In this document: positions 32,077 through 55,293 of the stretch, one piece after another | Layout: every line of letters begins with the position of its first letter | Position numbering within the stretch: the stretch's first letter is position 1 | NCBI GenBank assembly: GCA_024305105.1 | Contig: JAMWZA010000001.1 | Span: 1-64,000, forward strand | Reading direction: 5' to 3' | From: Marinoscillum sp. | Lineage (GTDB): Bacteria > Bacteroidota > Bacteroidia > Cytophagales > Cyclobacteriaceae | DNA length: 64,000 bases | The notes under the pieces: model-generated | What the model saw: the letters and a program-made list of their open reading frames with translations, nothing else | Told to the model about the DNA's origin: nothing | The model's database searches: none | Program-made: the position numbers and the translations under genes

Positions 32077-32190
32077 CTATCGAATTGCTTAGTACAAACA
32101 ATATTGACATTTAATGTATTTTACTATTCATACTAATTGAGGTACCATAAAAATCTCTAGTAAAAAACCAATCACAACCCACACCCCGAG

Positions 32191-35754: not shown

Positions 35755-36897
35755 TCATTTAGAAGTTTTAACTTCCTGAAAGCCAGTATTTTCCAGCAAC
35801 TGAAATATTTGCAAAGATTCATTCCCATTACCAGCATCAAACCATGTGGCATTCTCCCAGTTAGATCCTTTGTTCCATGGAGTACTACAGTCTGTAGACA
35901 CCCAACCCGGCTCCCAATAGACCACTCCTTTTCCTCCAGCTTGCTTGGTCACATCAATCAACCGCTTCATAAACTGGTACTGACCATCCTCCGTGGCAGG
36001 ATAACCAGGGATCAAGGAATCTTCACCCAGAATATTATTTCCTTCATCAAAATTCTGAAGTGTGTATGGATAAGCTGTTTCCACCACCATCAGTTCCTTA
36101 TCGTAAGTGGTAATGAGTGAATCAATGGCCAAACCCAGGCTATCCAGGCCATATTCAGACCACTTTGGATAGTAGGATATGCCAATCCATTCATAATCAC
36201 CCAGCCCATTTCTTTTGGCCGCATCAAACCACCAAAGTGCATTCTCTGGTTGGGCTATGTGAATCATGCGTTGAATATCTACTTTTCTGATTTGCGAAAA
36301 GTCTTTGACCGCTTCCAGGCCGGCATTGATCAGCTGCAGATTGCGATCCCAATTGATCGTATCTACGACCATACGATCAGCAGGCTGCATGATTTCAACA
36401 TTGATCTCATTTCCTATCTGTACGATTTCAGGTAGTAATTCCATTTCATCGAGCCTATTCAATGTCCGATAGGTATACTGATACACACTATCGGCCAGAA
36501 TATCCTGGTTGGTAATTTGTTCCCAGGCCCTGGGAATTACCTGATGCTGAGGATCTGCCCACGTATCGGAGTAGTGAAAATCCAATAAAACTGTCATTCC
36601 AGCGTTTTTTGAGCGTTCGATGGCTAAGGCTACATCGTCAAAATTAGAATAACCGTTCGTCCAGTCCGGGGTATGCCACAGTCGCAACCTGGAAATATTA
36701 GCTCCTTTTTCTCCAAACAACTTATAAGGATTCACGATTTCACCATTGTGCCGATACTCAGCACCACAGTCCAGCATTTCATTGACGTAGGACAAATCTC
36801 CTCCTTGGTAAAAAATTGATTCCGCCTCTTTTGGGTCTTTGGTACTTTTACATCCTAGTGCCAGTACTAATACTATCAAGTAGATAAAATTTTTCAA
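35755..36897 (-). CDS. GH53 arabinogalactan endo-beta-1,4-galactanase (lipoprotein)
   Basis: Lipobox LALGC; GANISRLRLWHTP; acid/base QIGNEIN; nucleophile VVETAYP; YWEPGWV. Confidence 0.93.
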   Translation of the reverse strand: MKNFIYLIVLVLALGCKSTKDPKEAESIFYQGGDLSYVNEMLDCGAEYRHNGEIVNPYKLFGEKGANISRLRLWHTPDWTNGYSNFDDVALAIERSKNAGMTVLLDFHYSDTWADPQHQVIPRAWEQITNQDILADSVYQYTYRTLNRLDEMELLPEIVQIGNEINVEIMQPADRMVVDTINWDRNLQLINAGLEAVKDFSQIRKVDIQRMIHIAQPENALWWFDAAKRNGLGDYEWIGISYYPKWSEYGLDSLGLAIDSLITTYDKELMVVETAYPYTLQNFDEGNNILGEDSLIPGYPATEDGQYQFMKRLIDVTKQAGGKGVVYWEPGWVSTDCSTPWNKGSNWENATWFDAGNGNESLQIFQLLENTGFQEVKTSK

Positions 36898-36915: not shown

Positions 36916-38367
36916 TTAAAAATTCCACTCTTCCAATTTGGATGGAACACGCATTTGGTCTAAAGTGTCAAGAGCAGCTTTTACTCTGTTTGGTTCAGAA
37001 ATCGCCATATCAATCGATTCATTGGGGTCATTCTTTAGGTCGTAAAGTTCGAAATCATTAAAATTATCCCCCTCCACTTTCCTGATAAGCTTCCATCTTT
37101 CTTGAAGGAGTAATGCTTGAGCTGGTTTTCCATAAATAGTATGAAATTCCCAATACAGTACGTCTCGTTTTACATTAGGCTGGTTGTAAAAACTATGCAT
37201 CAAAGAAACTCCATCTGTTGAGAACGGCTCTTCATAACCAATCAAATCGGCGAAAGTGGGAAGTAAATCCCAAAAAGCACCTACACTTTGAGATTCTCCT
37301 GGGCGTATCTGTCCTTGCCACGAAATAACCATAGGCACTCTAATGCCACCTTCATACAAGTCTCGCTTATACCCTCTGTAACCTGCATTACTATTGAAAA
37401 AATCCGGGTCAGCACCACCCTCTTTATGCGGCCCGTTATCTGAGGTGAAAATGATTACGGTATTTTCTAAAAGATCATTTTTGCGGAGTTGATTAACAAT
37501 AGTTCCAACCTGCTGATCCAGCAAATCCACCATAGCTGCAAAGACAGCATGTGGTTTGGTTTGGGAGCCATACCACCCATTCTTATACTCCTTACATCCA
37601 GAATCACATCCTTGATAAGGTATTTCATCGAACCGATCAATATATTTTTGTACGTTTGGGTTTGGTGCTTTAAGCTCGGCATGTGGTAGAGGTGAGGCTA
37701 CGTAAAGGAAAAAAGGTTTTTCTTTATTCTTTTCAATGAATTCCAGTGTTTTAGTGTGAATGAGTTCCGGCGCATAAATACCTTCTAGGTTTTCCTTGTT
37801 AGCATCAAGCATAACCTTTTGCGTATTGTCCCATATATGAAAAGGATAATAATTATGAGCCAGTCGTTGACAATTGTAGCCAAAAAAGGTATCAAATCCC
37901 TGATTTAATGGATCACCTTCTGAATCAGGATATCCCAGACCCCATTTCCCAAATACTCCGGTGGCATATCCGCGGCTCTTAAACATTTCGGCAAGAGTTA
38001 GACTACTATCTGGCAACGGATACTGACCTTCATTTTCCATCTCTATATTTCCCCTAATTGGTGTATGACCAGTATGTAGACCTGTTAACAAGGTACTTCG
38101 TGAGGGTGCACAAACAGTAGATCCAGCATAAAATTGATCAAACACTAGACCATTTAGAGCAAGAGAGTCAATATTCGGAGTAAGGATTTTCGACTGTCCA
38201 TTGAATCCAACATCTCCATAACCAAGGTCATCCGCAAGTATTATTATAACATTTGGAGGCCGTTGTGTGTACTCTTTAACGAACAATATCCCACCAACCG
38301 TAATCGCAAAAAACACAAACCCAATAATCAGTTTTATCTTCATTGAATTATTTAAAAATAACAACAA
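36916..38367 (-). CDS. Family S1 sulfatase
   Basis: IIILADDLGYGDVG; FGly motif CAPSRSTLLTG; FTSDNGPH. Confidence 0.95.
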   Translation of the reverse strand: MLLFLNNSMKIKLIIGFVFFAITVGGILFVKEYTQRPPNVIIILADDLGYGDVGFNGQSKILTPNIDSLALNGLVFDQFYAGSTVCAPSRSTLLTGLHTGHTPIRGNIEMENEGQYPLPDSSLTLAEMFKSRGYATGVFGKWGLGYPDSEGDPLNQGFDTFFGYNCQRLAHNYYPFHIWDNTQKVMLDANKENLEGIYAPELIHTKTLEFIEKNKEKPFFLYVASPLPHAELKAPNPNVQKYIDRFDEIPYQGCDSGCKEYKNGWYGSQTKPHAVFAAMVDLLDQQVGTIVNQLRKNDLLENTVIIFTSDNGPHKEGGADPDFFNSNAGYRGYKRDLYEGGIRVPMVISWQGQIRPGESQSVGAFWDLLPTFADLIGYEEPFSTDGVSLMHSFYNQPNVKRDVLYWEFHTIYGKPAQALLLQERWKLIRKVEGDNFNDFELYDLKNDPNESIDMAISEPNRVKAALDTLDQMRVPSKLEEWNF

Positions 38368-38411: not shown

Positions 38412-40484
38412 CTATTTGATGACCATTTTTAATGTGTGAGACTTATTTATAAACCTGGCCTGCACCATATAAACCCCTGGAGGAAGAGAAGTTTCAACAC
38501 GAAATTGCTGCTCCTTCTGATTTTCAAATGATATTCTTTCCAATAAGAACCCAGCTAAGTTGAAGATCTCAATTGCTAGAATCCCAGAGTTGACCTCACA
38601 ATAAAATGTTCCGTCATTTGGATTCGGAAACAGGTTGAATCCCGTCCTCGCATCAAGACTTAAAACAACCTCTCCATCACATGACCCAAAAGCAAAAGAA
38701 TACGTCTCATCACCCTCTTTCACCTCATAGCCTCGGTCAGTTCCCCACCAGGGAGCACAGGATTCAGGAAGAATCTCACGGGCATCTCCATCCTTGCGAT
38801 TCAAAAAATGAAACGCTCCAGATCTACCTTCTTTCAGCGTAATTGAATACTCATAAATACTACCTTCTACTTTTTCCATAGGGATGATTTGCCAGGGGTC
38901 ACCAGTAAAAGAACCCGTAATGTAGGCTCCCTCCCCAAGGTCCTTTCCAGTCAGGTCCACTCGAAAAGTCACCTCATGAAAAAGATGCCGGTCAGGATCT
39001 CCAACCTCACAGCTTGACCATTGGTAGTCCAGTACTAGATCTTCAGATCCAACTTCAAGTTCACGTTTGCCATTTCCATCGGAGCAGTCAGCAGGCACCG
39101 TCTCAGAGGCAGATACACTCTGCCCATTCAGGAAGTAATAAGAAGAGACAGTTCCCTTTTCCAGAAATTCATAGTGATAGTAGATATCCTCGTCTACCTG
39201 CACCATTTGTATTGGCTCGTCCAATATTCCACCCATCAGGTATACACCCTCAGAGACATCTTGACCATACATATCCACCTTAAACGACACCTTCACCAGG
39301 TTGTCGTCATACCAATGCCTCTCTGTCCAGCGTCCTCCACCATTTTTCATGAAATTGGTGTTTTCCGGATCAAAAAAGGCCAAATGATCATGCGACGAAC
39401 CAGTGCCCCATGGTGTACGACAAGGTGTAGAAACCCATGCCGGCTCCCAAAAAACAACACCTGTACCACCACCTGACTTAACCGCTCTTGTATAATCTAT
39501 CATATACTCCAACTGACGCTCAGGAGTCAGAGGTGCATATTCAGGATCCGAATCTGTTACTATGTTACCCAGCTGATCAAAGTTCTGATCAGTCCATGGA
39601 TACCCCGTTTCCAGAGCCATTACCTCATAGTCCTCGAAATCATTAACCAAACTCCTCACCGTATTTTCTAATTGGCCGATGCTCCCTCCATGCCACGAAT
39701 AGTAATAGGAAAAACCAAGAATATCGAAATCGGTCACTCCATTGGCTAGAAATCGATTTTCATAATTCCAGGCAACTGCATCTAGTCCATTCGTCATATG
39801 AAGAGCGATTTTGGGATTAATTGATGCGGTAGTCCCTACTTCCCTTACCGCTCTAATGGCCGCATTAAATAATTGCGCATGTCTAGACCAATCGTTACTT
39901 ACGGTTTCTATTGCCTCCCATCCATTTTCTTCAGGAATTTGCGTCAGTATTCCTCCGTTATTCTCATTGCCCACTTTAACAATGTTTGGCATTAATCCTT
40001 CTGCATCCAGTTCAGTAAGTACTTTAACCGTGTAATTATAAACGGAATCTTTGAGCACTTCCAGGTCTGAAGCCACCCCTAACCAGGCACGTGGGATCAA
40101 CTGATGTGCTGGATCGGCCCAGAAGTCTGAATAGTGGATGCCGAGCATCACCTCCATACCGTTCGCTTTAGCTCGCCTAATCGTCTTTTTAACATCCTCA
40201 AAATCATTGTAATAAGGCAGCACTCCTTCAGGTTGATCTAAAGGACCCTGCCACCAGGAAGGGTCTTTCCAAAGTCTTACCCGAATCAAATTGGTTCCGT
40301 GATCAGAAAAAATAGTAAAGGGATCTTTTTCCTCACTATTTTCCTTATACACCGCCCCACAGTCCTCCATTTGGTTGACATAGGATAAGTCGTTACCATA
40401 ATAGAATGACTGGTCTTGAGCCAGTAAGTTATGACTTAACAGGATGAACAAACAGAACGAAAATGTTAAAACCTTTCTCATCAT
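38412..40484 (-). CDS. GH53 endo-galactanase with two C-terminal beta-sandwich modules and T9SS sorting domain
   Basis: YGNDLSYVNQMEDCGAVY; KVGNENN; ALETGYPW; VSFKVDMYGQDV/VTFRVDLTGKDL repeats; NLFPNPNDGTF tail. Confidence 0.92.
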   Translation of the reverse strand: MMRKVLTFSFCLFILLSHNLLAQDQSFYYGNDLSYVNQMEDCGAVYKENSEEKDPFTIFSDHGTNLIRVRLWKDPSWWQGPLDQPEGVLPYYNDFEDVKKTIRRAKANGMEVMLGIHYSDFWADPAHQLIPRAWLGVASDLEVLKDSVYNYTVKVLTELDAEGLMPNIVKVGNENNGGILTQIPEENGWEAIETVSNDWSRHAQLFNAAIRAVREVGTTASINPKIALHMTNGLDAVAWNYENRFLANGVTDFDILGFSYYYSWHGGSIGQLENTVRSLVNDFEDYEVMALETGYPWTDQNFDQLGNIVTDSDPEYAPLTPERQLEYMIDYTRAVKSGGGTGVVFWEPAWVSTPCRTPWGTGSSHDHLAFFDPENTNFMKNGGGRWTERHWYDDNLVKVSFKVDMYGQDVSEGVYLMGGILDEPIQMVQVDEDIYYHYEFLEKGTVSSYYFLNGQSVSASETVPADCSDGNGKRELEVGSEDLVLDYQWSSCEVGDPDRHLFHEVTFRVDLTGKDLGEGAYITGSFTGDPWQIIPMEKVEGSIYEYSITLKEGRSGAFHFLNRKDGDAREILPESCAPWWGTDRGYEVKEGDETYSFAFGSCDGEVVLSLDARTGFNLFPNPNDGTFYCEVNSGILAIEIFNLAGFLLERISFENQKEQQFRVETSLPPGVYMVQARFINKSHTLKMVIK

Positions 40485-40684: not shown

Positions 40685-42241
40685 TTAATTATACGTATCG
40701 TTTTGTTCGTACCCCTGGTTCAAAGCCCATATAGGTATCGGCAAAATCTCATGGTCATTTTGCTTGCCTCGTGCTGCCAGACGTTCTTCCCATTGGTCAT
40801 GCCTGATCAAATCCATTTTTCTCACCCCTTCAAAGAATAGTTCCTTTCCCCGCTCTTCAAGGATTGCAGCGTTGAAGGCATTAAGGTCAGAGGTGGACGC
40901 TGGTAAAAGGTCAGACACGTTCGATCGGTTCCTGACTTGATTGACCAACCCTATAGCTTCAGCAGTTGGTCCTCCGTTATTCTCATTGATCGCTTCGGCC
41001 AGCATCAACAATACATCTGCGTACCTGGCAATGATGATGTCATTTCCCTGGAATGCTCCCGGGTTCTCTATATTCTCTGGATACTTCAACACCACCGCAC
41101 CATTCAAATTAGTTCTATCTCTCAAGTCATTGCTGGTGCTGTTATAACTCGCATCAAACATCTCCAAACGCAAGTCGTTCGGATCAAAGGAATCATAAAA
41201 ATCCCAGTGAGCCATAAATACTCCTTGCGGATTACTCCATCCACCATTTTGATATACACCGGGGTAATCTCCTGGATAGCAATAGTAAGTCCAGGCGTTG
41301 ATATTACCGTTTTGAGCTACCCCATCAGAAGTATGGTCCACAGTAACCGCGAAGATGTTTTCAGCATTACGCTGAGTGCTTACCTCAAATAAAGACTTAT
41401 AAGGATTAGAACCAGAAGTAACCAAACCGTAGCCTAAGCCCGTAATCTCCCTGCCGATCTCTTCAGCGTCAGTAAAATTTCGTTCATTCATTTGTACACG
41501 CATAAGCAGCGTCAATGCAAATCCACGAGTGAATCGCCCATAAAAGTCATCACTGTCCCAGGAGATGTCAGGCAAGCCATTTGCCGGATCTGTGGCAAAT
41601 TCAAGATCACTTACCATAGCCGAAACATAATCCGCTCTACTAGGCTTGGTCACATCCCACTCTGCATCTGTTCCAATTTCGGAAGCGTCAAGAATGACAG
41701 GCACCGGCCCATACAAATGGAGTAAGTAGTACATGAGCCATGCTCTGGAGGTTCTGGCCTCAGCTTGTAGCAACAACTTACTTTCATCACTTATAGGTGC
41801 CACTTCCAAATCAGCAATAATTTGTGTTAGCTGGGTCACAAAACTCACTTTGGAAAGGTGACTTCTACTGATATCCTGTGTAGCAAAAAAGTCAAAGTTG
41901 GCACGGGTCACTGCTTCAAAGAATCCACCCCAGCCATTGACATAAATAGCTAGGTTATCTGACGGACCATCAAACATATAAAGGTGGCCAAATTCATAGG
42001 CATGAAAGTTGTCTCGATAGCTGTTGCTTGCATTAGGTATATTATAGCCCCACTTGGAGCCAAATGGCTTATATGCCTCCATGGTGTAGAGGAAATAATC
42101 CTCTTCTGTTTGAGGAAAATTATTCGGCGATAGCGTTCCGTAAAGTGCGGGATCAAAATCATCATCGCAACCTATTAGAACAAATACGAATGTGAATAAT
42201 ACAAATAGCTTCTTCATGATCTTTTGATTAAAATTTTGCAT
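40685..42241 (-). CDS. SusD/RagB family glycan-binding lipoprotein
   Basis: Lipobox FVLIGC; C-terminal NQVRNRSNVSDL...AILEERGKELFFEGVRKMDLIRHDQW; likely start at the internal MKKLFVLF. Confidence 0.95.
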   Translation of the reverse strand: MQNFNQKIMKKLFVLFTFVFVLIGCDDDFDPALYGTLSPNNFPQTEEDYFLYTMEAYKPFGSKWGYNIPNASNSYRDNFHAYEFGHLYMFDGPSDNLAIYVNGWGGFFEAVTRANFDFFATQDISRSHLSKVSFVTQLTQIIADLEVAPISDESKLLLQAEARTSRAWLMYYLLHLYGPVPVILDASEIGTDAEWDVTKPSRADYVSAMVSDLEFATDPANGLPDISWDSDDFYGRFTRGFALTLLMRVQMNERNFTDAEEIGREITGLGYGLVTSGSNPYKSLFEVSTQRNAENIFAVTVDHTSDGVAQNGNINAWTYYCYPGDYPGVYQNGGWSNPQGVFMAHWDFYDSFDPNDLRLEMFDASYNSTSNDLRDRTNLNGAVVLKYPENIENPGAFQGNDIIIARYADVLLMLAEAINENNGGPTAEAIGLVNQVRNRSNVSDLLPASTSDLNAFNAAILEERGKELFFEGVRKMDLIRHDQWEERLAARGKQNDHEILPIPIWALNQGYEQNDTYN

Positions 42242-45200
42242 TGATACCTAGTGAGTATGTTCTTACCATGGGGAAGTTTCCTGGGCCTCCTCTTACTCCT
42301 CCACCTTGACTGGTCTCAGGGTCAATTCCTTCAAAATTTGAGAACACAAATGGATTTTGCACATCTGCATAGATTCGTAAATTATCTATGAAAGAGATGG
42401 CATCTCTTTTGAAAGTATATCCAAGCGTAATGTTCCTGATTCGAAGAAAAGAAGCATTTTCCAACAGGTAGTCACTAAGAACAGGCAATCCAAGAGCAAA
42501 TTCATCATAAGCGTACCCTGGCAGAGTGCCATCTGGGTTGGTGGTACTCCAAACATCAGCCATATCGGTGGTACTGCTTTGCAAGCCTCCAAGGAAGTTT
42601 GGTAGATTGGTCCAATCTCTGGCGAAATTGCGCTTTTCTAGCCCAAATCGGCCATAGGCAAAGACATTCAATTCAAACTGCTTATACCTAAAAGTATTCC
42701 CTAATCCGAGATATACTTTTGGAAAAGGAGACCGCATCACTACATCAGCCACCGAGAGCGTATCGTCCCCATTTTGGTCTATAAAGATTGGAGAACCCGG
42801 ATATCGGGCTCTCTCTGGTTGATAGGTTGGCGCCTCATCTCCAATCTGTAATAAATCATTTTGAGTTTCAAAAACGTATATCGCACCTACATAATCATCT
42901 TCCTTCTGGTAAGGAGCTAATACCTCACCATCTGCGTAAGATTTCCATCGGGTCTCAAATCGTGACGCGTTGAAGGTAGTAGACCACTCAAAATCCTGCC
43001 GCTGAATGTTAACAGTATTCAGTGTCACATCAACCCCACGGTTCACCTGGTGACCATCGTTGACAGGAACCTGAGCAAGGAATGAAAGCGGTGGTGCTGG
43101 AATCGTTCTTAAAATCTGAGTAATATCTTTCTGGAAGAAGTCTACCGAGCCATTGATACGTCCTCTGAAAAAATCAAAATCCAAAGCGATATTCTTCACA
43201 ATAGTCTTTGGCCAGGTCAGGTTTGGCCAGTTTATTCCCTGCAATACGTAAGGAGTAATCAAATTGGTACTGTTAAATGGAATCGTTGATCCATCAGGAC
43301 CAAACACCCGATAAAGTGTATTTGCACTGACCGCATCTTCATCACCCAACACACCATAACTAGCCCTGATTTTCAATAGCTCTATCCCATTAACAGAGGA
43401 TAAGAAAGACTCATTAGAAATTTTCCAGCCTATAGAAGCTGAAGGAAATCCTGAAAATTTGTTGCCTTCATGAAATTTGTCTACTCCATCGAATCGGTAA
43501 GACAAGCTCAACAAATACCTGTCCAGAAAATCAAAATTAGTCCTGGCAAATAAGGAACGCCTTTCCTCCTCAAACTTATTAGAGAAAATCAATCGAGTTC
43601 CATCCGAAGCTGCTACATTGGTATTCCTTACCCCATCGTGTGTTCCGGATGAACTGGAGTACTGCAGCCCAAAACCTTCGCTTTGCTCTAGGTACCTTCC
43701 CACTCCGACGATCCCGTCCATACTAATTGACTCACCGAAATCTGGTGTTACATTAAATACCGCTTCCATCGTATGGTAATCGCGCTGTTGGTCAGACAAA
43801 GAACCACGTGATTGATTCAACTGATTGTAGAAGGTAGTTGAAGGTATATAGAAATCCCTTTTCGAGATTTCATGATTGTTACCATAAATTAGCTTGGCAG
43901 AAAGAAGTGAAGGAACTATGTCTATGTCAAATGACACATTACTAAGAACAGCACTGCTCTTTGTTTGATCTTCGATATCCAATAAAGAAACTGGATTTCC
44001 AGTCAACGCAAACCGCGTATAATCCCCGCTCTCATCTCTTACATCCAATATGCTGGGGTAAGCCAGTGCGGCCTGTACAGCTCCATAACCCTGAGACCCG
44101 CCACCACCAGACTGAACTCCTGCAGTTGAGTTGCCGTAAAAATTTCGATTAGCATTAATACTTGTGCTTAAACTAATGCGTTCTGAGAGGCTAAATTTCA
44201 GATTCGCTCTGCCACTATACCTCGTCAGTCCAGAGTTAACCACGGTACCTTGCTGATTAAAGTAATTACCAGAGAAGTAATAATTAACACGATCAGTTCC
44301 TCCATTGACTGTAAGCGAATGATTGTCAATACTTCCGTCTCTCAAAACTTCATTCAACCAATCTGTACCATCACCAGTGCCATTAATTTCAGCTGGAGTA
44401 TAAGGCGCAGAGTACGGTGTAGGTTGGCCAACTCCAAATGGGATCATTCCATTTTGGAATAAAAAACGATCTCTTCCCAACTCAGAAATGTATTTCTTAT
44501 ACTGACGGGCATTTAACGGCTTCAGGTAAGGCATATTCTGCACGTATGACCTGCTGGCATTATAGCTAACATCCATTCTTCCAGCTTTACCATCTTTAGT
44601 GGTAATTAGAATCACACCATTAGCAGCATTCACACCGTAAATAGCAGCACTGGCATCTTTCAATATCTCAACCGATTTTATATCATCTGGATTCAATCCG
44701 GCGAGGCCTCCCCGGTTCACACCGCTAAAAGTAAAAGTACCATTGCCGGGCTCATTACCAGAGGTAGGCATAATCACACCATCTATGACAATCAGAGGGG
44801 AACCACCCCCTCGAATGGATAAATTAATACTTCCACCGGGCTCAGAACTGTTCTGTACGGTTTGTAATCCTGCTGCCCTTCCAAAAAGCATTTCTGGAAC
44901 TGATGAATTAGCCGCCTTGGGCACATCATCTATGGCTACTTTCGCAATTGAGGTAGTCAAATCCTTTCTGGAAGTAGATCCATAACCCACCACAACCACT
45001 TCGTCAAGAGAAGAAATATCTGGTCTCATGTCAATAGTTATTAATTGACGTCCATTCAATGGGACTTCTCTTTGCTCATATCCGACAAACGACACGACCA
45101 AAACCTCATTCAAGTCATTCACTGATAATTTGAACTGCCCAGACACATCTGTAATGGTCCCATTGGATGTCCCCTTGACTGCAACCGTAGCTCCCGGTAA

Positions 45201-45329
45201 CCCACTACCACTCTCATCAAATACCTCACCAGTTACAGTGACAGACTGTGCGACCACCTCATGAACACATAGAAGGCATGTAAGCAATAGAATAAAACCA
45301 ATCTCCTTGAATTGAAAAAGTGTTCTCAT
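42228..45329 (-). CDS. SusC/RagA family TonB-linked outer membrane protein
   Basis: CarboxypepD_reg-like N-terminus, DEVVVVGYGS, plug SVEILKDASAAIYGVNAANGVILITTK. Confidence 0.96.
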   Translation of the reverse strand: MRTLFQFKEIGFILLLTCLLCVHEVVAQSVTVTGEVFDESGSGLPGATVAVKGTSNGTITDVSGQFKLSVNDLNEVLVVSFVGYEQREVPLNGRQLITIDMRPDISSLDEVVVVGYGSTSRKDLTTSIAKVAIDDVPKAANSSVPEMLFGRAAGLQTVQNSSEPGGSINLSIRGGGSPLIVIDGVIMPTSGNEPGNGTFTFSGVNRGGLAGLNPDDIKSVEILKDASAAIYGVNAANGVILITTKDGKAGRMDVSYNASRSYVQNMPYLKPLNARQYKKYISELGRDRFLFQNGMIPFGVGQPTPYSAPYTPAEINGTGDGTDWLNEVLRDGSIDNHSLTVNGGTDRVNYYFSGNYFNQQGTVVNSGLTRYSGRANLKFSLSERISLSTSINANRNFYGNSTAGVQSGGGGSQGYGAVQAALAYPSILDVRDESGDYTRFALTGNPVSLLDIEDQTKSSAVLSNVSFDIDIVPSLLSAKLIYGNNHEISKRDFYIPSTTFYNQLNQSRGSLSDQQRDYHTMEAVFNVTPDFGESISMDGIVGVGRYLEQSEGFGLQYSSSSGTHDGVRNTNVAASDGTRLIFSNKFEEERRSLFARTNFDFLDRYLLSLSYRFDGVDKFHEGNKFSGFPSASIGWKISNESFLSSVNGIELLKIRASYGVLGDEDAVSANTLYRVFGPDGSTIPFNSTNLITPYVLQGINWPNLTWPKTIVKNIALDFDFFRGRINGSVDFFQKDITQILRTIPAPPLSFLAQVPVNDGHQVNRGVDVTLNTVNIQRQDFEWSTTFNASRFETRWKSYADGEVLAPYQKEDDYVGAIYVFETQNDLLQIGDEAPTYQPERARYPGSPIFIDQNGDDTLSVADVVMRSPFPKVYLGLGNTFRYKQFELNVFAYGRFGLEKRNFARDWTNLPNFLGGLQSSTTDMADVWSTTNPDGTLPGYAYDEFALGLPVLSDYLLENASFLRIRNITLGYTFKRDAISFIDNLRIYADVQNPFVFSNFEGIDPETSQGGGVRGGPGNFPMVRTYSLGINAKF

Positions 45330-45544
45330 ATTTTATTATTCAATAATGAAATGACAATTACTATTTGATAATCCAACTCTACCTGCCAGAGTGCTTTACA
45401 ACAATTCCCTTTAGAACCACTAGAAAGCAAGTATCCCTCAATGTTCAACCACCGTTCTGTAAATAGCAACTCATATTGGTTCCCCGGGATGACAAAGTAT
45501 AATTAGCTTCAAAGATGGTTAGTGCTGCTTGATAGCGGGTAAGA

Positions 45545-45576
45545 CAAATTCATTCGTTCGATAGGTCAAATTCATT
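45545..45576 (-). promoter_or_regulatory. Putative HTCS operator upstream of susC (22-bp-spaced direct repeat)
   Basis: caaattcatt at 45545 and 45567; minus strand AATGAATTTGACCTATCGAACGAATGAATTTGTC. Confidence 0.6.
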
Positions 45577-45716
45577 ATTACTAATATATTTTGATCTCAC
45601 ACCTCTTTTTTGACCAAAGTCCAATAAATCTTACTAGAATTTAAAACTTTACAATTTTTTCTCAGTTTACAAGACTCCAAATTGCGACTTTCGTTCTCGC
45701 ACAGAGCATACAGTTT

Positions 45717-48700
45717 ATGGGGAAACAATTCATGGGTGCATGTCTTAAGTGTACAAAAACGTTGGCCTTTTTAATTATCATTTTTAGTTCCAACAAACTA
45801 ATAGCACAGGAATCACGGTTTTTCACCAATATATCAACTACAGCTGGCCTATCATCCAACTCAGTTACGGCAATAGTTCAGGATGGAGAAGGATTCATAT
45901 GGATTGGCACTAAGAAAGGACTCAATAGGTTTGATGGAATCTCCTTCAAACATTATGACGCCAATAACTCCAGCCTGACATCTAATGACATCACCACATT
46001 AAGCGTAGATCAAAACGGAAAGCTTTGGGCAGGTTTCCTTAACGGAGGCGTGGAAGTTTACTCATCTCTGGAAGATGACTTTGTGATACCTGAAGGATCA
46101 AAGGTTAATGCAAATGAAACCGTCAATTCCATCTATACACACTCATCAGGAAATACATGGGTTCTTGCAGAAAGTGGGGCTTACATTTATAGTAGCGACA
46201 GCTCATGGGTTTTTCCCACTGATGACGAACTGATAAGTATATCAGAGTGGGACGGTGACCTGTGGGTCGGATCAATCGATGGCAAAATTTTAACAGCCAA
46301 TAAAACCCGTTTCGTTCATACGTACGAAATCCCAACGAAAGGAAGAGGAGCCATCAATAGAGTGTGGAGCCTATTACCTACATCCAATGAAGAAATGCTG
46401 GTGGGCACTCAAAGTGCTGGATTATACATTTTTAATAAGGAGACAGAACTCTTTTCTCCTCATCCCCAAATTGAAGCATCAATCATCCGTGGGCTCATGC
46501 TGGATAAAAACAAACACGTATGGGTAGGCACGGATGGCAATGGCGTTTACGAAATAGATGAAAAAGGCAGCATACATAATTATACACACTTATACGGTAA
46601 TGAAAACGCTATTGCCAGCAATGCGTTGACATCCATTCACGAGGATAAACAGGGCAATATTTGGTTCGGTACTGCATGGGATGGTATGAGTATATTGGAC
46701 CAACAATCAAAAGACTACAGATTTTATTACAGTGATTTTACAGGTGAAAAAAGTACTGGTGTTCTCAGTATTCTAAGTGATTCCAGCAGAATATGGCTTG
46801 GGTCGGATGGAGATGGACTTCACTCCTACCCTTCTCTTACTAATGAATTCCCACAAATCAATCAGTACCTTGGTCAAGGCTCCTATGTCCAATTTATCAA
46901 AGCAATTGATGACAATTATTGGATTGGTACGTTCAAAAAAGGGTTGTTTAAAATAAACCTAAACCGAAAAAAAGTAGTTCGGTTCGCTTATGATGAACAG
47001 AATCCCAACTCAATCTCTTACAACGATGTTCGTGATATAGTCAAACTTGATGACAGCAACTATCTGATAGCAACTTGGGGTGGAGGAGTGAACCTATACA
47101 ATGCTGACAAAGAAACATTCAAAACCCTCTCAATTGATGAAACCAACCTAACGCCTAAAAACACAGTAACAATTCATCACAATTCGCCATCAGAGGTTCT
47201 TGTAGGCACATTTAATGAAGGCCTATATCTATATGATCATAATGAGGAGTCCTTTTCTCGAATACATACACAAACAATCAAAAATTGCGTAGCACTTTTA
47301 TCAGATGCTAAAAATATATGGATTGGGACATGGGGAGAAGGCCTCTACAGAATGAATCGAAATTATGACTCCCTTGAAAAGTTATCCAATAGATTCATTT
47401 CTGATCACGAGACCATACTCTCATTACTGAAAGGCAGTAATAATGGAATAGTGTTTTCCACCAAAGAATCCGTGTTTCACATGTCCAAAAACCAAAGTGT
47501 GGAAGAAATTAAAGGACTAAAAGGTCAATATTATATAAATGCAGCCGCAAAAGACCCGTCAGGTAGATACTACTTTGGTCATAGAAAAGGAGCCATATCA
47601 TTCGAGAAAATCGACAGCTCAAAAACTGACAGCATTACACTAAAGCTACTGAGCATCGAATTATTTAACCAAAAACTCAACATGCCAGATGAAACTAACA
47701 AACCATTGGAGTTCAAGCATGACGAGAACGTACTTACATTTGAATATGCAGCACTAAACTTTCCCTCTTCAAAAGACATTCACTATCAGGTCAAAGTAGA
47801 TCCACTTCATAATGATTGGATTGAAATGGGAACAAATCGCTCACTTACACTAGCTAATCTTAACCCCAATAATTACACACTGCATGTCAGGGCAACTTCT
47901 GGAAAAAATGAAATAAGCCATGATTTTATCGTGCATAAACCATGGTGGTTAACCTGGTGGGCTATTTGCCTTTACTTTATAGCCTTTCTCGTATTACTCT
48001 ACCTGTTTCGAGTTTATTCAGTGAGACTGGAAAAGCTGAGATCAAGACTCAAACTAGAAAGGTTCAACACTCAAAAGGAAATAGAAATAGGCAAATTGAA
48101 GCAAAAGTTTTTTGTCAATATTTCGCATGAAATAAGAACCCCTTTGACACTTATAATGGGTGAAATTGAACGATTGATTGGTTCTTCTACAGTTAATCAG
48201 AAAATGGGTAAATCCATTTTCAACATTCGAGCAAACAGTAACTACATCATGCAACTGGTCAATGAGCTGCTTGACTATCGGAAGCTAGAATCCGAAGAGT
48301 TTAAATTACAGGTTGCCGAGGGCAATATCGTAAAATTTGCTAGAGAAATATTCCTTGCATTTCAACATTTGGCAGAGAATAAAGAGATAAACTACCATTT
48401 CGAATCAAGTCATGAGATAATAAATACATGGTACGACCGAGACCAATTGGAGAAAGTATTCTACAACCTGCTTTCAAATGCGTTCAAATACACCGAATCC
48501 GGCAAGTCAATAACCTTACAACTGACAAAAGATGCAAACCAGCTGGCCATTGAAGTAATCGATGAAGGAAAAGGCATCCAGGAAAATCAACTGAAAAATG
48601 TGTTCAAACGATTTTACCAAAGTGACAACAACAATCAAAACACCGAAACGGGATTTGGAATAGGGTTATCCATTGTAGCAGAAATTGTCAGGCTTCATAA

Positions 48701-49640
48701 AGGTAAAATCACCGTTGAGAGTCAGCTAAATCAAGGCTCTGCATTTAGAATACGCATACCTATTGGCAAAGAACACTTTTCTGAAGACCAGCTGTTAGGA
48801 AACTTCATCGATAGTGAATCCATCAAACTTTACAAGACGGAAGATCTCCTGAGTACGCGCTCCCAGGAGAATTTGGATCACGAGCACTCCATTCTTATTG
48901 TTGAAGACAACGAGGAAATCAGACGCTTCATTGCCGAAGTGTTACAAGAAAATTTCGTAGTTAAAACTGCTGCCAACGGGCAACTTGCGTTAGACTTGTT
49001 AGAAAACGAAGAGCTGCCAGATCTCATTATTTCGGATGTCATGATGCCTGAAATTGATGGGGTAACCCTGTTGAAAAAGGTAAAATCCAGTATCAACACG
49101 AGTCACATACCAATACTTCTGCTTACAGCGAGGACAGGTTTGATCTTTAAGAAGGAGGGCTACACCATTGGAGCAGACGATTACATTACCAAACCATTCA
49201 ACTCTTCTTTACTTAAAGCGCGGGTTAATAACATCATTCGCAACCGAATCCTGCTTCGGGACAAAATCCGAAATGAATACCTCACCAAAACAAGGGACAT
49301 TGATCTCCTCAATCCCGACGAGGAATTCCTTACGATGATCACAGACATAGTTGATAAGAATCTGGGCAGTGAAGAGTTGGATACAGGTCTGATATCTTCT
49401 GAGCTGGGCATGAGTCATTCTGTGGTTTATAAAAAACTAAAATCCCTCACTGGACTTACAATCGTTGAATTCATCCGGGATTACAGGCTCAGTCAGGGCG
49501 CCCGATTACTGACAGTGCATGGATTAACCGTCGCTGAGACCAGTTACAAAGTAGGGTTCTCAGATAAAAAGTATTTTAGCCAAATGTTCAAAAAGAAGTT
49601 TGGGCTTACCCCCACCGATTACGTGAAACAACATTCCTAA
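45717..49640 (+). CDS. Hybrid two-component system regulator (HTCS)
   Basis: Reg_prop propeller, Y_Y_Y, TM, HisKA (FFVNISHEIRTPLTLIMGE), HATPase, receiver, AraC HTH (YFSQMFKKKFGLTPTDYVK). Confidence 0.96.
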   Translation: MGKQFMGACLKCTKTLAFLIIIFSSNKLIAQESRFFTNISTTAGLSSNSVTAIVQDGEGFIWIGTKKGLNRFDGISFKHYDANNSSLTSNDITTLSVDQNGKLWAGFLNGGVEVYSSLEDDFVIPEGSKVNANETVNSIYTHSSGNTWVLAESGAYIYSSDSSWVFPTDDELISISEWDGDLWVGSIDGKILTANKTRFVHTYEIPTKGRGAINRVWSLLPTSNEEMLVGTQSAGLYIFNKETELFSPHPQIEASIIRGLMLDKNKHVWVGTDGNGVYEIDEKGSIHNYTHLYGNENAIASNALTSIHEDKQGNIWFGTAWDGMSILDQQSKDYRFYYSDFTGEKSTGVLSILSDSSRIWLGSDGDGLHSYPSLTNEFPQINQYLGQGSYVQFIKAIDDNYWIGTFKKGLFKINLNRKKVVRFAYDEQNPNSISYNDVRDIVKLDDSNYLIATWGGGVNLYNADKETFKTLSIDETNLTPKNTVTIHHNSPSEVLVGTFNEGLYLYDHNEESFSRIHTQTIKNCVALLSDAKNIWIGTWGEGLYRMNRNYDSLEKLSNRFISDHETILSLLKGSNNGIVFSTKESVFHMSKNQSVEEIKGLKGQYYINAAAKDPSGRYYFGHRKGAISFEKIDSSKTDSITLKLLSIELFNQKLNMPDETNKPLEFKHDENVLTFEYAALNFPSSKDIHYQVKVDPLHNDWIEMGTNRSLTLANLNPNNYTLHVRATSGKNEISHDFIVHKPWWLTWWAICLYFIAFLVLLYLFRVYSVRLEKLRSRLKLERFNTQKEIEIGKLKQKFFVNISHEIRTPLTLIMGEIERLIGSSTVNQKMGKSIFNIRANSNYIMQLVNELLDYRKLESEEFKLQVAEGNIVKFAREIFLAFQHLAENKEINYHFESSHEIINTWYDRDQLEKVFYNLLSNAFKYTESGKSITLQLTKDANQLAIEVIDEGKGIQENQLKNVFKRFYQSDNNNQNTETGFGIGLSIVAEIVRLHKGKITVESQLNQGSAFRIRIPIGKEHFSEDQLLGNFIDSESIKLYKTEDLLSTRSQENLDHEHSILIVEDNEEIRRFIAEVLQENFVVKTAANGQLALDLLENEELPDLIISDVMMPEIDGVTLLKKVKSSINTSHIPILLLTARTGLIFKKEGYTIGADDYITKPFNSSLLKARVNNIIRNRILLRDKIRNEYLTKTRDIDLLNPDEEFLTMITDIVDKNLGSEELDTGLISSELGMSHSVVYKKLKSLTGLTIVEFIRDYRLSQGARLLTVHGLTVAETSYKVGFSDKKYFSQMFKKKFGLTPTDYVKQHS

Positions 49641-49678
49641 TCACCTCTTAAGTGGAAACCATGCGGAAATTCTCCCAA

Positions 49679-49712
49679 AATGAATTTCCCCTACCCTTCT
49701 AAAGAATTCTTC
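49679..49712 (+). promoter_or_regulatory. Putative HTCS operator upstream of candidate glycan-binding lipoprotein
   Basis: AATGAATTTCCCCTACCCTTCTAAAGAATTCTTC, half-sites 22 bp apart. Confidence 0.5.
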
Positions 49713-49749
49713 TACCCACTGTGCACACCCTTTGTCGCATCTTAGCTTC

Positions 49750-49857
49750 ATGAGTAACAAGGGGATAATCAAGAAAATGTATGTCAGAGTTTGGGTTCTA
49801 GTTGTTGTCCTTACGGCGATGTTTGGTTCCATGATATACATGCTCTTGTCTGCATAA
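49750..49857 (+). CDS. Putative 35-aa single-TM small protein
   Basis: MSNKGIIKKMYVRVWVLVVVLTAMFGSMIYMLLSA*, basic N-terminus then hydrophobic helix. Confidence 0.4.
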   Translation: MSNKGIIKKMYVRVWVLVVVLTAMFGSMIYMLLSA

Positions 49858-49910
49858 GTGCCATACACCCTGTTTTACTCATTTAAACTATTCAACAATT
49901 TTAAATTAAC

Positions 49911-51101
49911 ATGAAGATGATTAAGAAGTTAAATTTTCCATTACTGATTGCAGTCTTCGGACTGTGCCTGTGGTCTGGATGTAGTGAAGAAGAGCCTACA
50001 CCGCCTCCAGCGGAGCCCACTATCACTACAGCTTTACCTGATGGGGCAGATACTCCATTTGTTGGAACCACTGTTATGATTACGCTCAATCTTGCTGCAG
50101 AAGCTGGATTAAGCACTTTGTACTTAGATGACAATAGCATCAATACATTTACTGGTACCGAAACGGAAGCTACAATCGTTCACGAGCAATTCATCGGTAG
50201 TGAAGACCCAATAGAGCTGGTTTTCTCAATTGAAGATGCGCTAGGAATAAAAGCGACCGCTGCAACAGTCACTTTGAATCCCGTTGAAAATCCAGCTATA
50301 GGCTTCCTTCTTGTCGATTTCTCAGGAACCTCGTCAGGTAACGATACCAAAGAAGTAGCTAGCTGGGATACTAGAACCATTTGGACAATGGGGATTTCAG
50401 GTAAAATTGGAAGCACAGCTACAATTGAAAATGTAGCTGGACAGGGTAAAGTAGCACAATTTGCAGCTACGAACCCTGATCCGAATGAAACAAACAAAGT
50501 GCTTAAATACACAAAAGACCAAGGAGCAACTTCAAGTGGTGCTTGGGGTGGATGGACCAATTTTATCATTGGATTAGAAAGTGCAGTACCTACCGAAGAG
50601 ACATCTGAACTAGCGAAATATGACTCTGCAAGCAACACCCTGGTAGCTGGCTCAAGAGTAGTAGCAGTAGATGTTTATTATGATGCCACGGTAGATCAGG
50701 ATTTTACATGGTCAGACATAGCTACGTTTGAAGATGCAGGCGACATCTGGAATTCGGATGTTACTAAAGGGTTGAAGATTGATGCCGTTTTAGGTAGCTA
50801 TGAGATTCACGCTAACAATGAGGTCGGATACGATAATCAAGGATACTACATAAGCTACAGCGGATACGTTCCAGAACCCAATAAATGGGTAACTGTCAAA
50901 TTCAATCTATTAGATGAAGGAAGAACAGCATTCTTCTATGACAATAGAAATGAAGACAACACCTCAAGCTCCGTAGGACCAGACATGGTCGATTGCATCA
51001 ACTTAAAGGTTTCTCCTGGATACGATGCCTCTAGTGGTGGAGATGGAATCGATACCAATCCAATCTACTTCAGAAACTTAAGAATAATCAACGCAGAATA
51101 A
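49911..51101 (+). CDS. Lipoprotein, candidate surface glycan-binding protein
   Basis: Lipobox LWSGC, EEEPTPPPAEPT linker, beta-rich repeats, position in PUL. Confidence 0.7.
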   Translation: MKMIKKLNFPLLIAVFGLCLWSGCSEEEPTPPPAEPTITTALPDGADTPFVGTTVMITLNLAAEAGLSTLYLDDNSINTFTGTETEATIVHEQFIGSEDPIELVFSIEDALGIKATAATVTLNPVENPAIGFLLVDFSGTSSGNDTKEVASWDTRTIWTMGISGKIGSTATIENVAGQGKVAQFAATNPDPNETNKVLKYTKDQGATSSGAWGGWTNFIIGLESAVPTEETSELAKYDSASNTLVAGSRVVAVDVYYDATVDQDFTWSDIATFEDAGDIWNSDVTKGLKIDAVLGSYEIHANNEVGYDNQGYYISYSGYVPEPNKWVTVKFNLLDEGRTAFFYDNRNEDNTSSSVGPDMVDCINLKVSPGYDASSGGDGIDTNPIYFRNLRIINAE

Positions 51102-51181
51102 TCGTAGTACTTCTTCTAATATATCATAAAACCAGGCACAATTGTGGCTGGTTTTTTGTTAATAGCTCCCTGAAAAAGCAA

Positions 51182-51352
51182 ATGGACTATCTCGGCATCA
51201 TTAAATTTACCGTAGGCATTATTGGTTTCGGCTATTCCCTAGCACACATCGCACGAAGTAAAAAACCTTCATGCTTCAGAAGAGGTCTGATGATTTTTTT
51301 GATCACCACATTAATCTTAGTTAGTCTAATGGTGACGCCATATTTGATGTGA
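51182..51352 (+). CDS. Putative 56-aa small membrane protein
   Basis: MDYLGIIKFTVGIIGFGYSLAHIARSKKPSCFRRGLMIFLITTLILVSLMVTPYLM*, two hydrophobic segments. Confidence 0.4.
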   Translation: MDYLGIIKFTVGIIGFGYSLAHIARSKKPSCFRRGLMIFLITTLILVSLMVTPYLM

Positions 51353-51452
51353 TCCAACGGCTGAAACTTGGTTTTATACAGAGCCTTAAAAACAAACTCA
51401 ACTATCATTTGAAATTAGAAGATCACCCGTTTTAAACCATTTTAATGACCTT

Positions 51453-51488
51453 AATCAAATTTACCCTACTCCTCAAATGAATTTGTCA
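51453..51488 (+). promoter_or_regulatory. Putative HTCS operator upstream of CE4/SGNH/GH2 operon
   Basis: AATCAAATTTACCCTACTCCTCAAATGAATTTGTCA, AATTT cores 22 bp apart. Confidence 0.6.
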
Positions 51489-51540
51489 GCCTTCAAAAAG
51501 CCCTTCTAACCTTAGATTGCCTTATCATTTAATCAGCCAA

Positions 51541-52284
51541 ATGAAATACGCAATTCAAGTACTTTATCTCGCCCTCCTATTTGGGCTAAGACTTAGCAGT
51601 TCCGGTCAACCCCCTACCGAAGAAAAGGTAGGAGTTTCTGAACATTGGAAGGTGCTTAACGCTACCCACCCCCATCATTGTATTTTAACTGGAGATCCAT
51701 CATCCAAAAAAATAGCCCTCACCTTCGATGATGGACCAACCGAACTCACTGCGAAGGTCCTGGATACGCTTGAGAAATACGCAGCTAAAGCCACTTTCTT
51801 TTGGTTGGGGCAAAACATCCTCCAGCATCCACATTTTGTAAAAAATGCCGCGCAGACACATCAAATAGCAAATCACAGTTGGGATCATAAAAATGGCTTT
51901 AAAACCGCACCAGCAACCGTATTGACGACTCAAATAGCGCCCACAAACCAACGGTTAATCAGCCTTGGGATTAAACCTGCCACCTACTACAGACCTCCAT
52001 TTGGTGCGGTTACAGAAAAGCAAATCAAGTATCTGGCAGAACATGGGATCACCACGGTCTTATGGTCTCTGTCTACACTGGATTGGGATACAGAACGGAA
52101 TTCCACAAATCAAATATTCTCAAGATTCAAAGAGCATATCCACAATGGAGCTATCGTACTCCTCCATGACCGCACATTCAATGATGACGGTCAGAGCATG
52201 CTCAATGCATTGAGTCAAATACTTGTGTATGGCCAGAAAGCTGGATATGAATTTGTCACGCTTAATGAACTTCTTATTAAATGA
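51541..52284 (+). CDS. Polysaccharide deacetylase (NodB/CE4 family)
   Basis: IALTFDDGPTELTAKVLDTL; QIANHSWDH; TYYRPPFGAV. Confidence 0.94.
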   Translation: MKYAIQVLYLALLFGLRLSSSGQPPTEEKVGVSEHWKVLNATHPHHCILTGDPSSKKIALTFDDGPTELTAKVLDTLEKYAAKATFFWLGQNILQHPHFVKNAAQTHQIANHSWDHKNGFKTAPATVLTTQIAPTNQRLISLGIKPATYYRPPFGAVTEKQIKYLAEHGITTVLWSLSTLDWDTERNSTNQIFSRFKEHIHNGAIVLLHDRTFNDDGQSMLNALSQILVYGQKAGYEFVTLNELLIK

Positions 52285-53009
52285 AAACATCTTATATAAG
52301 CAATAAGCTACTACTTATTTGGCTACTTCTAAGCGCAGGACTGTCAGGATGCACTCAAAACCTTCCTATCAAATCCTCTAATAAATGTAGTGTCCAATAC
52401 CCTTCGTTAGATACGATTATCACTTCACATACCGAGTTTACTAAATCACACTATCCAAAGAGAATCAAGGCATTCATGCTGGACACCTTAGCGAAGGGAG
52501 ACATAATTATGTTGGGAAACAGTCTCACTGAGCATGGAGGGAATTGGGCAGATAAATTGCAAAATAGTAAAGTGAAAAATCGAGGTATTAAAGGGGATAA
52601 TACCTATGGCATTTTGGCAAGGCTTGATGAAATCATTTGTGCCAACCCAAGTAAAGTTTTTATGATGATCGGAACCAATGATTTATGGCTCCCTGACAGC
52701 CCTGAGCAAATTGTAGAAAACATTCAGGCCATTGTGAAACGCTTGAATCAGTCAGAAAACACCAATATTTATGTACAGACCTTAATGCCGGTAGAATCAG
52801 GTCATGAAATGACTGGAAAAATCATTGACATAAACAATATACTTCGATCCATGGATCATCTAGGCTTTACACTCATCGATATCAACCTCGAAATGGCTGA
52901 TAACAATGGTGCCTTACCAAACGAATTCACAACAGACGGAGTGCACCTGACTTCTTTAGCATATCAACATTGGTCATCACTTCTAAAACCTTACGTCAAT
53001 CATGAGTAG
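52281..53009 (+). CDS. SGNH/GDSL-like hydrolase lipoprotein
   Basis: Lipobox LSGC; MLGNSLTEHG; MIGTNDLW; TDGVHLTSLAYQ. Confidence 0.9.
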   Translation: MKTSYISNKLLLIWLLLSAGLSGCTQNLPIKSSNKCSVQYPSLDTIITSHTEFTKSHYPKRIKAFMLDTLAKGDIIMLGNSLTEHGGNWADKLQNSKVKNRGIKGDNTYGILARLDEIICANPSKVFMMIGTNDLWLPDSPEQIVENIQAIVKRLNQSENTNIYVQTLMPVESGHEMTGKIIDINNILRSMDHLGFTLIDINLEMADNNGALPNEFTTDGVHLTSLAYQHWSSLLKPYVNHE

Positions 53010-55293
53010 ATTCTTTATCATCATTTTCATCCTTACTGCATCCTGTACTACCAAAAAAAATCTACAAATATCACGTACTGAGTTAAAAGAATGGTTATGC
53101 GATTACGGAGACCATTCCAAGAGTGTGATTGTACCTCATACACCTCTAGTTGAACCACTAGTCGTAAACGATCAGTGGCAAGGCAGATTAAACTACCTGA
53201 AAACCATTCAGATCGACGATCCGGAAAATGGCAAAACCTGGTTGCATTTCGAGGGAGTGATGAACGACACAAAAGTATTCGTAAATCAACAATTAGTAAC
53301 CAGACACCTTGGAGGCTATCTCCCGTTATCAGTCGATATTACTCGATTTATCTCCAAAGGTGAAAACAAAATCAGGTTAGAAGTACGAAACACCGATAAC
53401 CCCATTATACCGCCGGGCAAATCTCTGGAAACACTAGACTTCAATTACTACGGAGGTATCTATCGTGATGCGTGGCTAATCAGAAAGAATCATATTTACA
53501 TCACCGATCCGTTTATCGAAAATACGAAAGATGCTGGATGGCTCCTTCATTTTGATACTGTAAGTGCATCCATGGCTTATGGTGAATTAAGGATACAACT
53601 TAGAAACGACCTTGATGAAAACACCTCTATTGGAGTAGAAACTAACCTGACTTTTGGAGAAGATTCTTACATCTTCAATAAAAAACTTGACCTTAAGCCT
53701 TCGTCCTCTTCTTCAATATCTATTCCCATTGAAATACCCAATCCTAAGCTATGGTCAGTTACGTCTCCAAACCTTTATGACTTATCAATTAATATCATTG
53801 AAGAAGGGCAAATACTTGATCGAATAGAGGATAAAACAGGAATAAGACATATTAACTTTAATAAGAATGGCTTCTTCCTCAATGGTCAAAAGATGTTCAT
53901 CAGAGGCACCAATCGACATCAAGAGTACCCCTATTTAGGTTACGCAATATCGGATAACGCCAATTATCGTGATGCGCTGAAAATAAAAAATGCAGGCTTT
54001 GATTTCGTTCGTCTGAGTCACTATCCACAAGACGAATCATTCCTAAATGCATGCGATGAACTAGGCTTATTGGTAATGAATGCAATTCCGGGGTGGCAGT
54101 TTTACCAGGAAGGAGAATTTATTGAAAATTCCTACCAGGACATTAGGGATATGGTTAGAAGAGACCGCAACCATCCTTCGGTAGTGTTTTGGGAGGTATC
54201 CCTAAACGAATCGGCAATGACAGATCAATACATCAAAGAAGCCAATGCAATCTTAAAGAAGGAACTTCCCTATGAAGAAACTTACAGTGCAGGATGGATG
54301 GATCACCCAGCTTACGATCTATTCATACCAGCCAGACAGCATTCCGGACCGCCTCACTATTGGAATTACCATAAAGATGGAAAGAGAAACATATTTATTG
54401 CAGAATATGGAGATTGGGAATATTATGCACACAATGCAGGCTTCAATCAGACTGCTTTTGATAACCTCTCGGAAGAAGCAAGAAACAGTCGTCAACTCAG
54501 AAAGCATGGGGAAAGAAGACTTCTCCAGCAAGCGCTTAATTTTCAGGAAGCTGCCAACTCAAACCGCAATGGAGTCGCAACCATTGGCCATGCGAATTGG
54601 CTCATGTTCGACTACAACAGAGGATATGCAGATGATTTAGAAGCATCGGGCATCTCAGATATCTTTCGAATACCAAAGTTTGCCTATTACTTCTACAAAA
54701 GTCAGAGACCTCCCAACCAGGACATTAATCATCCATTGGTAGAAGATGGTCCAATGATCAAAATAGCTTCCTACTGGACAGAAAACTCACCAACAGATGT
54801 TACAGTTTTTAGCAATTGCGACCTGGTAGAGCTGTACTTGAATGATAGTCTGATAGACAGAATTTCACCCACGCTCAACCATCTATCAGATAACTTGATT
54901 TCACCTCCTTTTCATTTCCAGATTAACTCCTTTCAACCCGGACAGCTGATAGCTAAAGGATATGTAAATGAGGTATTGACCGTCACAGATACGGTTAATA
55001 CTCCGGGTGAACCAAAAGCAATCGAATTGTCAGTGGATTATCAATCAGATTATTTCGATGAGAATGATGATGTGATCTTCATATATGCCAAAATTGTGGA
55101 CATCAAAGGAACAATCATACCAGAAGACTCATCAGAGGTAATGTTTAAATTGAATTCTCAAGGAAACCTCATAGGAGATAACCCGGTCAGAGCAGAAGCA
55201 GGAATCGCAACCATTCTTTTTCGTGGAGACCCTTCCACACTAGATATTGAAGCTAATGGTGATGGCTTATTAAAAGCTAATCATACACATTAA
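53002..55293 (+). CDS. GH2 beta-galactosidase-like lipoprotein
   Basis: Lipobox LTASC; IRGTNRHQEYPYLGYAI; VVFWEVSLNES; FIAEYGDWEYY. Confidence 0.93.
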   Translation: MSRFFIIIFILTASCTTKKNLQISRTELKEWLCDYGDHSKSVIVPHTPLVEPLVVNDQWQGRLNYLKTIQIDDPENGKTWLHFEGVMNDTKVFVNQQLVTRHLGGYLPLSVDITRFISKGENKIRLEVRNTDNPIIPPGKSLETLDFNYYGGIYRDAWLIRKNHIYITDPFIENTKDAGWLLHFDTVSASMAYGELRIQLRNDLDENTSIGVETNLTFGEDSYIFNKKLDLKPSSSSSISIPIEIPNPKLWSVTSPNLYDLSINIIEEGQILDRIEDKTGIRHINFNKNGFFLNGQKMFIRGTNRHQEYPYLGYAISDNANYRDALKIKNAGFDFVRLSHYPQDESFLNACDELGLLVMNAIPGWQFYQEGEFIENSYQDIRDMVRRDRNHPSVVFWEVSLNESAMTDQYIKEANAILKKELPYEETYSAGWMDHPAYDLFIPARQHSGPPHYWNYHKDGKRNIFIAEYGDWEYYAHNAGFNQTAFDNLSEEARNSRQLRKHGERRLLQQALNFQEAANSNRNGVATIGHANWLMFDYNRGYADDLEASGISDIFRIPKFAYYFYKSQRPPNQDINHPLVEDGPMIKIASYWTENSPTDVTVFSNCDLVELYLNDSLIDRISPTLNHLSDNLISPPFHFQINSFQPGQLIAKGYVNEVLTVTDTVNTPGEPKAIELSVDYQSDYFDENDDVIFIYAKIVDIKGTIIPEDSSEVMFKLNSQGNLIGDNPVRAEAGIATILFRGDPSTLDIEANGDGLLKANHTH

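Follow-up and report, generated by a model that had tools for sequence, protein, structure and literature searches.

In Bacteroidota, the use of glycans is switched mainly by hybrid two-component systems (HTCSs), for which, to our knowledge, few operators have been defined outside gut Bacteroides. In the AraC family of regulators, the araI1–I2 operator is made up of head-to-tail half-sites about 21 bp apart, the proximal one lying beside the upstream promoter element. For 16 HTCSs of Bacteroides thetaiotaomicron, direct-repeat operators with a mean spacing of 21 bp have been predicted, and the HTCS list of this species includes a regulator for pectic galactan, HTCS_Pga/BT4673 (Ravcheev et al., 2013; PMC3878776). 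The receiver–DNA-binding fragments of the HTCSs BT4124 and BT4663 bind susCD promoters in electrophoretic mobility shift assays (PMC11253607). Here, we report on a stretch of 64,000 nucleotides from Marinoscillum sp. (assembly GCA_024305105.1, contig JAMWZA010000001.1, positions 1–64,000; referred to in the following as the window), in which three similar sites precede the transcription units of a polysaccharide-utilization locus (PUL) adjoining an HTCS gene (45717..49640, plus strand). These sites, which an earlier note on this DNA had put forward as a shared bipartite operator, are very probably the operators through which the adjacent HTCS would switch on the PUL.

Results and discussion

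Three sites at the promoters of one PUL

Operator 1 lies in the susC promoter at 45543..45576 on the minus strand, with the exact sequence AATGAATTTGACCTATCGAACGAATGAATTTGTC; operator 2 lies ahead of a micro open reading frame (micro-ORF) and a lipoprotein gene at 49679..49712 on the plus strand, with the exact sequence AATGAATTTCCCCTACCCTTCTAAAGAATTCTTC; and operator 3 lies in the promoter of the CE4–GDSL–GH2 unit at 51454..51487 on the plus strand, with the exact sequence ATCAAATTTACCCTACTCCTCAAATGAATTTGTC. The positions and sequences given earlier (45543–45576, minus; 49679–49712 and 51453–51487, plus) were recovered, and in the ungapped alignment, which takes the 34-mers from 45576 (minus), 49679 and 51454, the third site thus begins at 51454. 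The distance of 22 bp between the AATTT/AATTC cores, in one orientation toward the downstream gene, holds at all three sites and corresponds to two helical turns. The best ungapped triple of 34-mers from the three intergenic regions shows 20 invariant columns, with a mean of 13.4 and a maximum of 17 in 300 shuffles (p ~0.003), and the susC site forms a significant internal repeat on its own (9/9 at 22 bp, p 0.02).

In a genome-wide pattern scan of the kind proposed in the earlier note, covering 5.76 Mb in 296 contigs, AATTTNNCCTA-N11-AATTY matches exactly at three places, which are the three sites of the window. With one mismatch allowed the pattern has 12 matches genome-wide, a number equal to that of the reversed control pattern. 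Two profiles were also applied genome-wide, one built from nine sites (R1) and one extended to 70 positions (R2), and gave E values of 0.003 and 1.3e-4 for operator 1, 4.4e-4 and 4.4e-5 for operator 2, and 3.0e-4 and 5.6e-5 for operator 3, respectively. All three genome-wide profile and pattern matches sit at promoters of the PUL that adjoins the HTCS at 45717; the full site is confined to its own PUL in this genome, and similar scores at many unrelated intergenic sites were not found.

Weak operator-like spots close to the noise are also present in the window at 51413–51446 (plus), 32044–32077 (minus) and 40810.

The site follows the HTCS DNA-binding subtype

HTCSs with the most similar DNA-binding domain (51–58% identity) were found in the genomes G001, G003, G087, G127 and G479 and in Sabulibacter ruber (locus L060). 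Those of G001 and G003 are the nearest by whole protein and, because they sit in other PULs, were used as relatives of the same DNA-binding subtype and not as orthologous PULs; among the related PULs, those of G127 and G479 have susC, susD and GH2 in common with the window, and L060 has susC, susD and two GH53 genes. The intergenic regions ahead of susC in the relatives carry the same site, ungapped and in the 22 bp register (for example AATGAATTTGACACCCCTCTTCAACGGAATTATC in L060 and AACGAGAATGACACACCTTTCTTACGAATATTGT in G087), and relatives with about 50–58% DNA-binding domain identity share it at their PUL promoters. A matrix made from the three window sites alone recovers the site anticipated in G127, L060 and G001, in the correct orientation (shuffling p 0.002–0.010), a matrix made without any window site ranks the window sites first, second and fourth in the 64 kb, and a leave-one-species-out weight matrix places each of nine sites in the top 5–34 positions of 1.89 Mb on both strands. 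The exact pattern of the earlier note has no exact match in the loci of the relatives, where conservation becomes visible only when the core is relaxed to AYGAAT.

A first consensus pattern with up to three mismatches hit two unrelated places and missed the window sites, and therefore profiles were used; a site picked by eye before susC in G003 (L044, near 1170) was discarded for its low score.

The nine-site profile also predicts sites on which it was not trained. Such matches lie in the same PULs before GH88, GDSL and CE4 genes in G001, before a gene for a PL11-type rhamnogalacturonan lyase and a susC in G003, and at a GH88 gene in G087, with R1 E values of, for example, 0.0014 (G003:C99:48641) and 0.0012 (G087:C19:336134). 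In G002 and G005, which belong to the same genus and in which even the best HTCS DNA-binding domain match is only distant (E ~1e-22), there is no R1 match below an E value of 0.09 and no cluster. Over 297 genomes of the family, R2 matches with E < 2.5e-4 occur only in G000, G001, G003, G087 and G127, and a scan of the same genomes for the DNA-binding domain finds the subtype in all five of these; in G129, G298 and G063, weaker R2 matches are found no more than ~200 bp from a gene for an HTCS of this subtype.

Six further HTCS loci were fetched by a DNA-binding domain or profile match, none of which had been used for training, and five of them (L222, L223, L224, L226 and L227) have an untrained site of 18–31 bits. 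In these five new sites the 22 bp offset outscores every alternative in the range 18–26 by 8 bits or more, and a shift of the gap by 1–4 bp ruins the match. The 77 loci that contain other HTCSs (1.59 Mb) are free of positions with 20 bits or more; a score of 18 bits is attained once, at 14071 in L062, a position that itself lies just behind an HTCS. The proposal of a candidate regulon motif for the HTCS at 45717 is therefore supported, since the site follows the HTCS DNA-binding subtype across species, keeps its 22 bp spacing in all compiled sites and, in this genome, occurs only at the adjoining PUL.

Anatomy of the operator and a −7-like box

The consensus aAYGARWWTnMCaCMCCyttTcttaAYGAATaTG was derived from 23 compiled sites in seven species, every one of which has a spacing of 22 bp. 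The half-site that is repeated reads AYGAAT, and its G matters most; the most constant letters are G4, A5, C12, A24 and G26, with C12 invariant in every site, and the C-rich stretch occurs only between the halves. Two details of the earlier description change on this basis. The AATTT that it took as the conserved core is slightly off the core, which reads AYGAAT/AYGARWWT, and its conserved CCTA is found at all three window sites but is only the local form of the wider C-rich segment.

A TAnnnTTG box starts 26 bp downstream of the operator, with at least four of five letters in 15 of the 23 sites and 0–5 sites at other offsets; this register was reached by none of 2000 shuffles, and the box had played no part in the choice of the sites. 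The candidate boxes of the window are CATCTTTG at 45510..45517 (minus) for operator 1, CATCTTAG at 49738..49745 (plus) for operator 2 and TAGATTGC at 51513..51520 (plus) for operator 3, each 26 bp after its operator. The known −7 element of Bacteroidota is TAnnTTTG (PMC7366714), to which the box is close, and a −7 role is likely but not general. No conserved column was found between the operator and the −7 box in the 23 sites, and a TTTG at −33 did not emerge there. No preferred −7 offset was seen in the 77 loci with other HTCSs, and a fixed −7 distance is therefore not claimed for HTCS operators in general. If the −7 box is right, the half-sites would be centred near −47 (proximal) and −69 (distal), with the activator in place of the −33 element. 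The candidate box of operator 3 also bears on the start of the CE4 gene, for which ATG 51541 is likelier than TTG 51517 because the box occupies 51513–51520. In the leaders no RNA element was found by Rfam.

Alternative explanations

Several observations weigh against the assignment of the sites to the HTCS. Taken singly, operators 2 and 3 have no significant internal direct repeat and are convincing only jointly or through their relatives. No convincing site was found in one of the six further loci (L225 in G085), the HTCS of which has a DNA-binding domain identity of 55%, and the site adjoining the HTCS of G003 is weak (15.0 bits) even though this HTCS ranks among the closest. The compiled sites are not all independent, because the 23 sites come from seven species and 17 of them from three genomes, and the five later sites show the −7 register only weakly.

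The lack of a significant repeat in two of the three sites taken singly speaks for a chance likeness picked from much sequence, but matrices built from other species, and searches of new genomes, recovered the sites independently, and these out-of-sample tests already refute chance, the probability of which is practically nil. That the three sites owe their likeness to elements of standard Bacteroidota promoters (TTTG at −33 and TAnnTTTG at −7) in AT-rich DNA, and not to a regulator site, is extremely unlikely. AATTTG does include TTTG, and AATTT is frequent in AT-rich intergenic DNA; however, the distance of 22 bp between the halves differs from the −33/−7 spacing of sigma-ABfr promoters, and the −7-like box is a distinct element that begins 26 bp beyond the operator. 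Moreover, the most conserved letters G4, A5, C12 and G26 are absent from any promoter consensus, and the full site is limited to this PUL in its own genome, the 34 bp profile not being found at many unrelated promoters.

The sites might instead bind another regulator travelling with these PULs, such as a LacI-type or a separate AraC regulator, the HTCS being a putative binder. A LacI gene lies just behind one weak site in G087, and a TPR-type hybrid kinase with HTH_18 (32191–35244) is encoded near the PUL. LacI sites are palindromes, whereas these sites are direct repeats; the sites occur in PULs for two different substrates, of which the common feature is the HTCS DNA-binding subtype; and the untrained matches in G129, G298 and G063 lie close to genes for such HTCSs. 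We thus regard another regulator as very unlikely.

The HTCS, its PUL and a proposed mechanism

The proposed binder of the operators, the HTCS of 1307 amino acids encoded at 45717..49640 (plus), combines in a single chain a periplasmic Reg_prop/Y_Y_Y sensor (PF07494, E 8e-24; PF07495, E 3e-4, under its gathering score) with HisKA, HATPase, receiver and AraC-type HTH_18 domains (PF00512, PF02518, PF00072 and PF12833) according to Pfam. Its S/CHIP-DK motif, which comprises inhibitory contact residues as defined in PMC11253607, was recognized by eye as SHIP in NTSHIPILLL, D in PDEEFL and K in VYKKLK.

By Pfam, operator 1 is followed on the minus strand by susC (42228–45329), susD (40685–42241), a GH53 gene (38412–40484), a sulfatase gene (36916–38367) and a second GH53 gene (35755–36897). 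Operator 2 and the micro-ORF are followed by a lipoprotein gene (49911..51101, plus) with no Pfam match, relatives of which lie between the HTCS and susC in related galactan PULs (L225 and L226) and beside the HTCS in L222, and its product is a candidate surface glycan-binding protein. Downstream of operator 3, genes for a CE4 polysaccharide deacetylase, a GDSL esterase and a GH2 enzyme, also assigned by Pfam, occupy 51541..55293 (plus). The GH53 enzymes (endo-galactanases) and GH2 presumably indicate beta-1,4-galactan, a side chain of rhamnogalacturonan-I pectin, as the substrate, and the sulfatase inside this GH53 galactan PUL hints at a sulfated galactan.

We infer the binding, phosphorylation, activation and ligand of the HTCS as follows. 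The periplasmic propeller sensor would bind an oligosaccharide, probably from beta-1,4-galactan, upon which the kinase would phosphorylate the receiver domain and the AraC-type domain would be released. Two copies of the AraC domain would then bind head-to-tail on one face of the DNA at the two AYGAAT half-sites 22 bp apart, the nearer of which would lie about 47 bp upstream of the putative transcription start, next to the −33 region, and the activator would recruit sigma-ABfr RNA polymerase at the −7 box 26 bp further on. The susCD–GH53–sulfatase–GH53 unit, the lipoprotein unit and the CE4–GDSL–GH2 unit would thus be switched on jointly.

The window HTCS gene itself has no forward site, which fits the remark in PMC6874557 that HTCSs are expressed constitutively at a low level. 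In L226 the HTCS gene belongs to an operon that has an operator ahead of it (L226:12014–12047, minus), and in G479 a second, weaker site faces its HTCS (L155:5556–5589, plus); HTCS autoregulation may therefore occur in other loci.

Further genes of the window lie outside these units. The second hybrid kinase near the PUL (32191–35244, plus) contains TPR repeats and HisKA, HATPase, receiver and HTH_18 domains. A protein of 2289 amino acids (18765–25634, minus) combines GH53 and SASA acetylesterase domains with a secretion-system sorting tail, and is neighboured by other very large secreted proteins at 10024–30863.

A putative membrane-peptide ORF behind operator 2

The micro-ORF (49750–49857, plus) that separates operator 2 from the lipoprotein gene has 35 codons, or 26 if an internal ATG is taken as the start, and would encode a C-terminal transmembrane helix. 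Just 5 bp lie between the −7 box and its first ATG, so that the shorter version of 26 codons is more probable, if the frame is translated at all. ORFs of similar build (26–45 codons, with a basic N-terminus and a C-terminal transmembrane helix) follow the HTCS in L060 (~14035–14115), G127 (L140), L223, L224 and L028, and together with that of the window they are alike in build and unlike in sequence. Such a micro-ORF is present in six of 99 HTCS-downstream regions, compared with 0.8 expected from shuffles and with six of 265 control regions, and all six HTCS cases have at least 44% DNA-binding domain identity. Small membrane proteins such as MgrB act back on PhoQ. By analogy, the regulon of this HTCS subtype might include a membrane micropeptide of 26–45 residues, encoded between the operator and the first gene of the PUL, that feeds back on the HTCS in the membrane, an idea that we consider unlikely.

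Comparison with known HTCS operators

The kind of operator, a direct repeat for an HTCS, is already known; what is new is this particular operator and a layout that is better defined than in the description that we found. The two half-sites, the exact gap and the distance to the −7 box make up a full promoter layout that can be tested, and the consensus finds the regulon in other genomes. One DNA-binding subtype is thereby tied to PULs for two parts of rhamnogalacturonan-I pectin, the galactan side chains and the backbone. In addition, the PUL promoters of the 77 other HTCS loci (L061–L138) show an excess of direct repeats with spacings of 21 and 22 bp, at 22 and 18 promoters, respectively, versus 3–15 at other spacings, which supports the 2013 rule outside Bacteroides.

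In common with the HTCS motifs of B. thetaiotaomicron (PMC3878776), which were likewise attributed to dimers of AraC-type HTCS domains, the operators of the window are direct repeats about two turns apart upstream of susC/susD and other local PUL operons. This likeness is one of layout, and the present motif differs in its spacing of 22 bp, in the definition of its sequence (AYGAAT half-sites with a C-rich spacer) in species outside Bacteroides and in the −7-like box at a fixed distance. The window HTCS has the same domain build as BT4124 and BT4663 (PMC11253607), including the SHIP loop, D and K residues recognized by eye, but it belongs to another organism and has another putative operator sequence. 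The head-to-tail half-sites, of which the promoter-proximal one adjoins an upstream promoter element, recall araI1–I2, although in the window the regulator is a membrane-bound hybrid kinase instead of a soluble sugar-binding protein and the promoter is of the Bacteroidota type.

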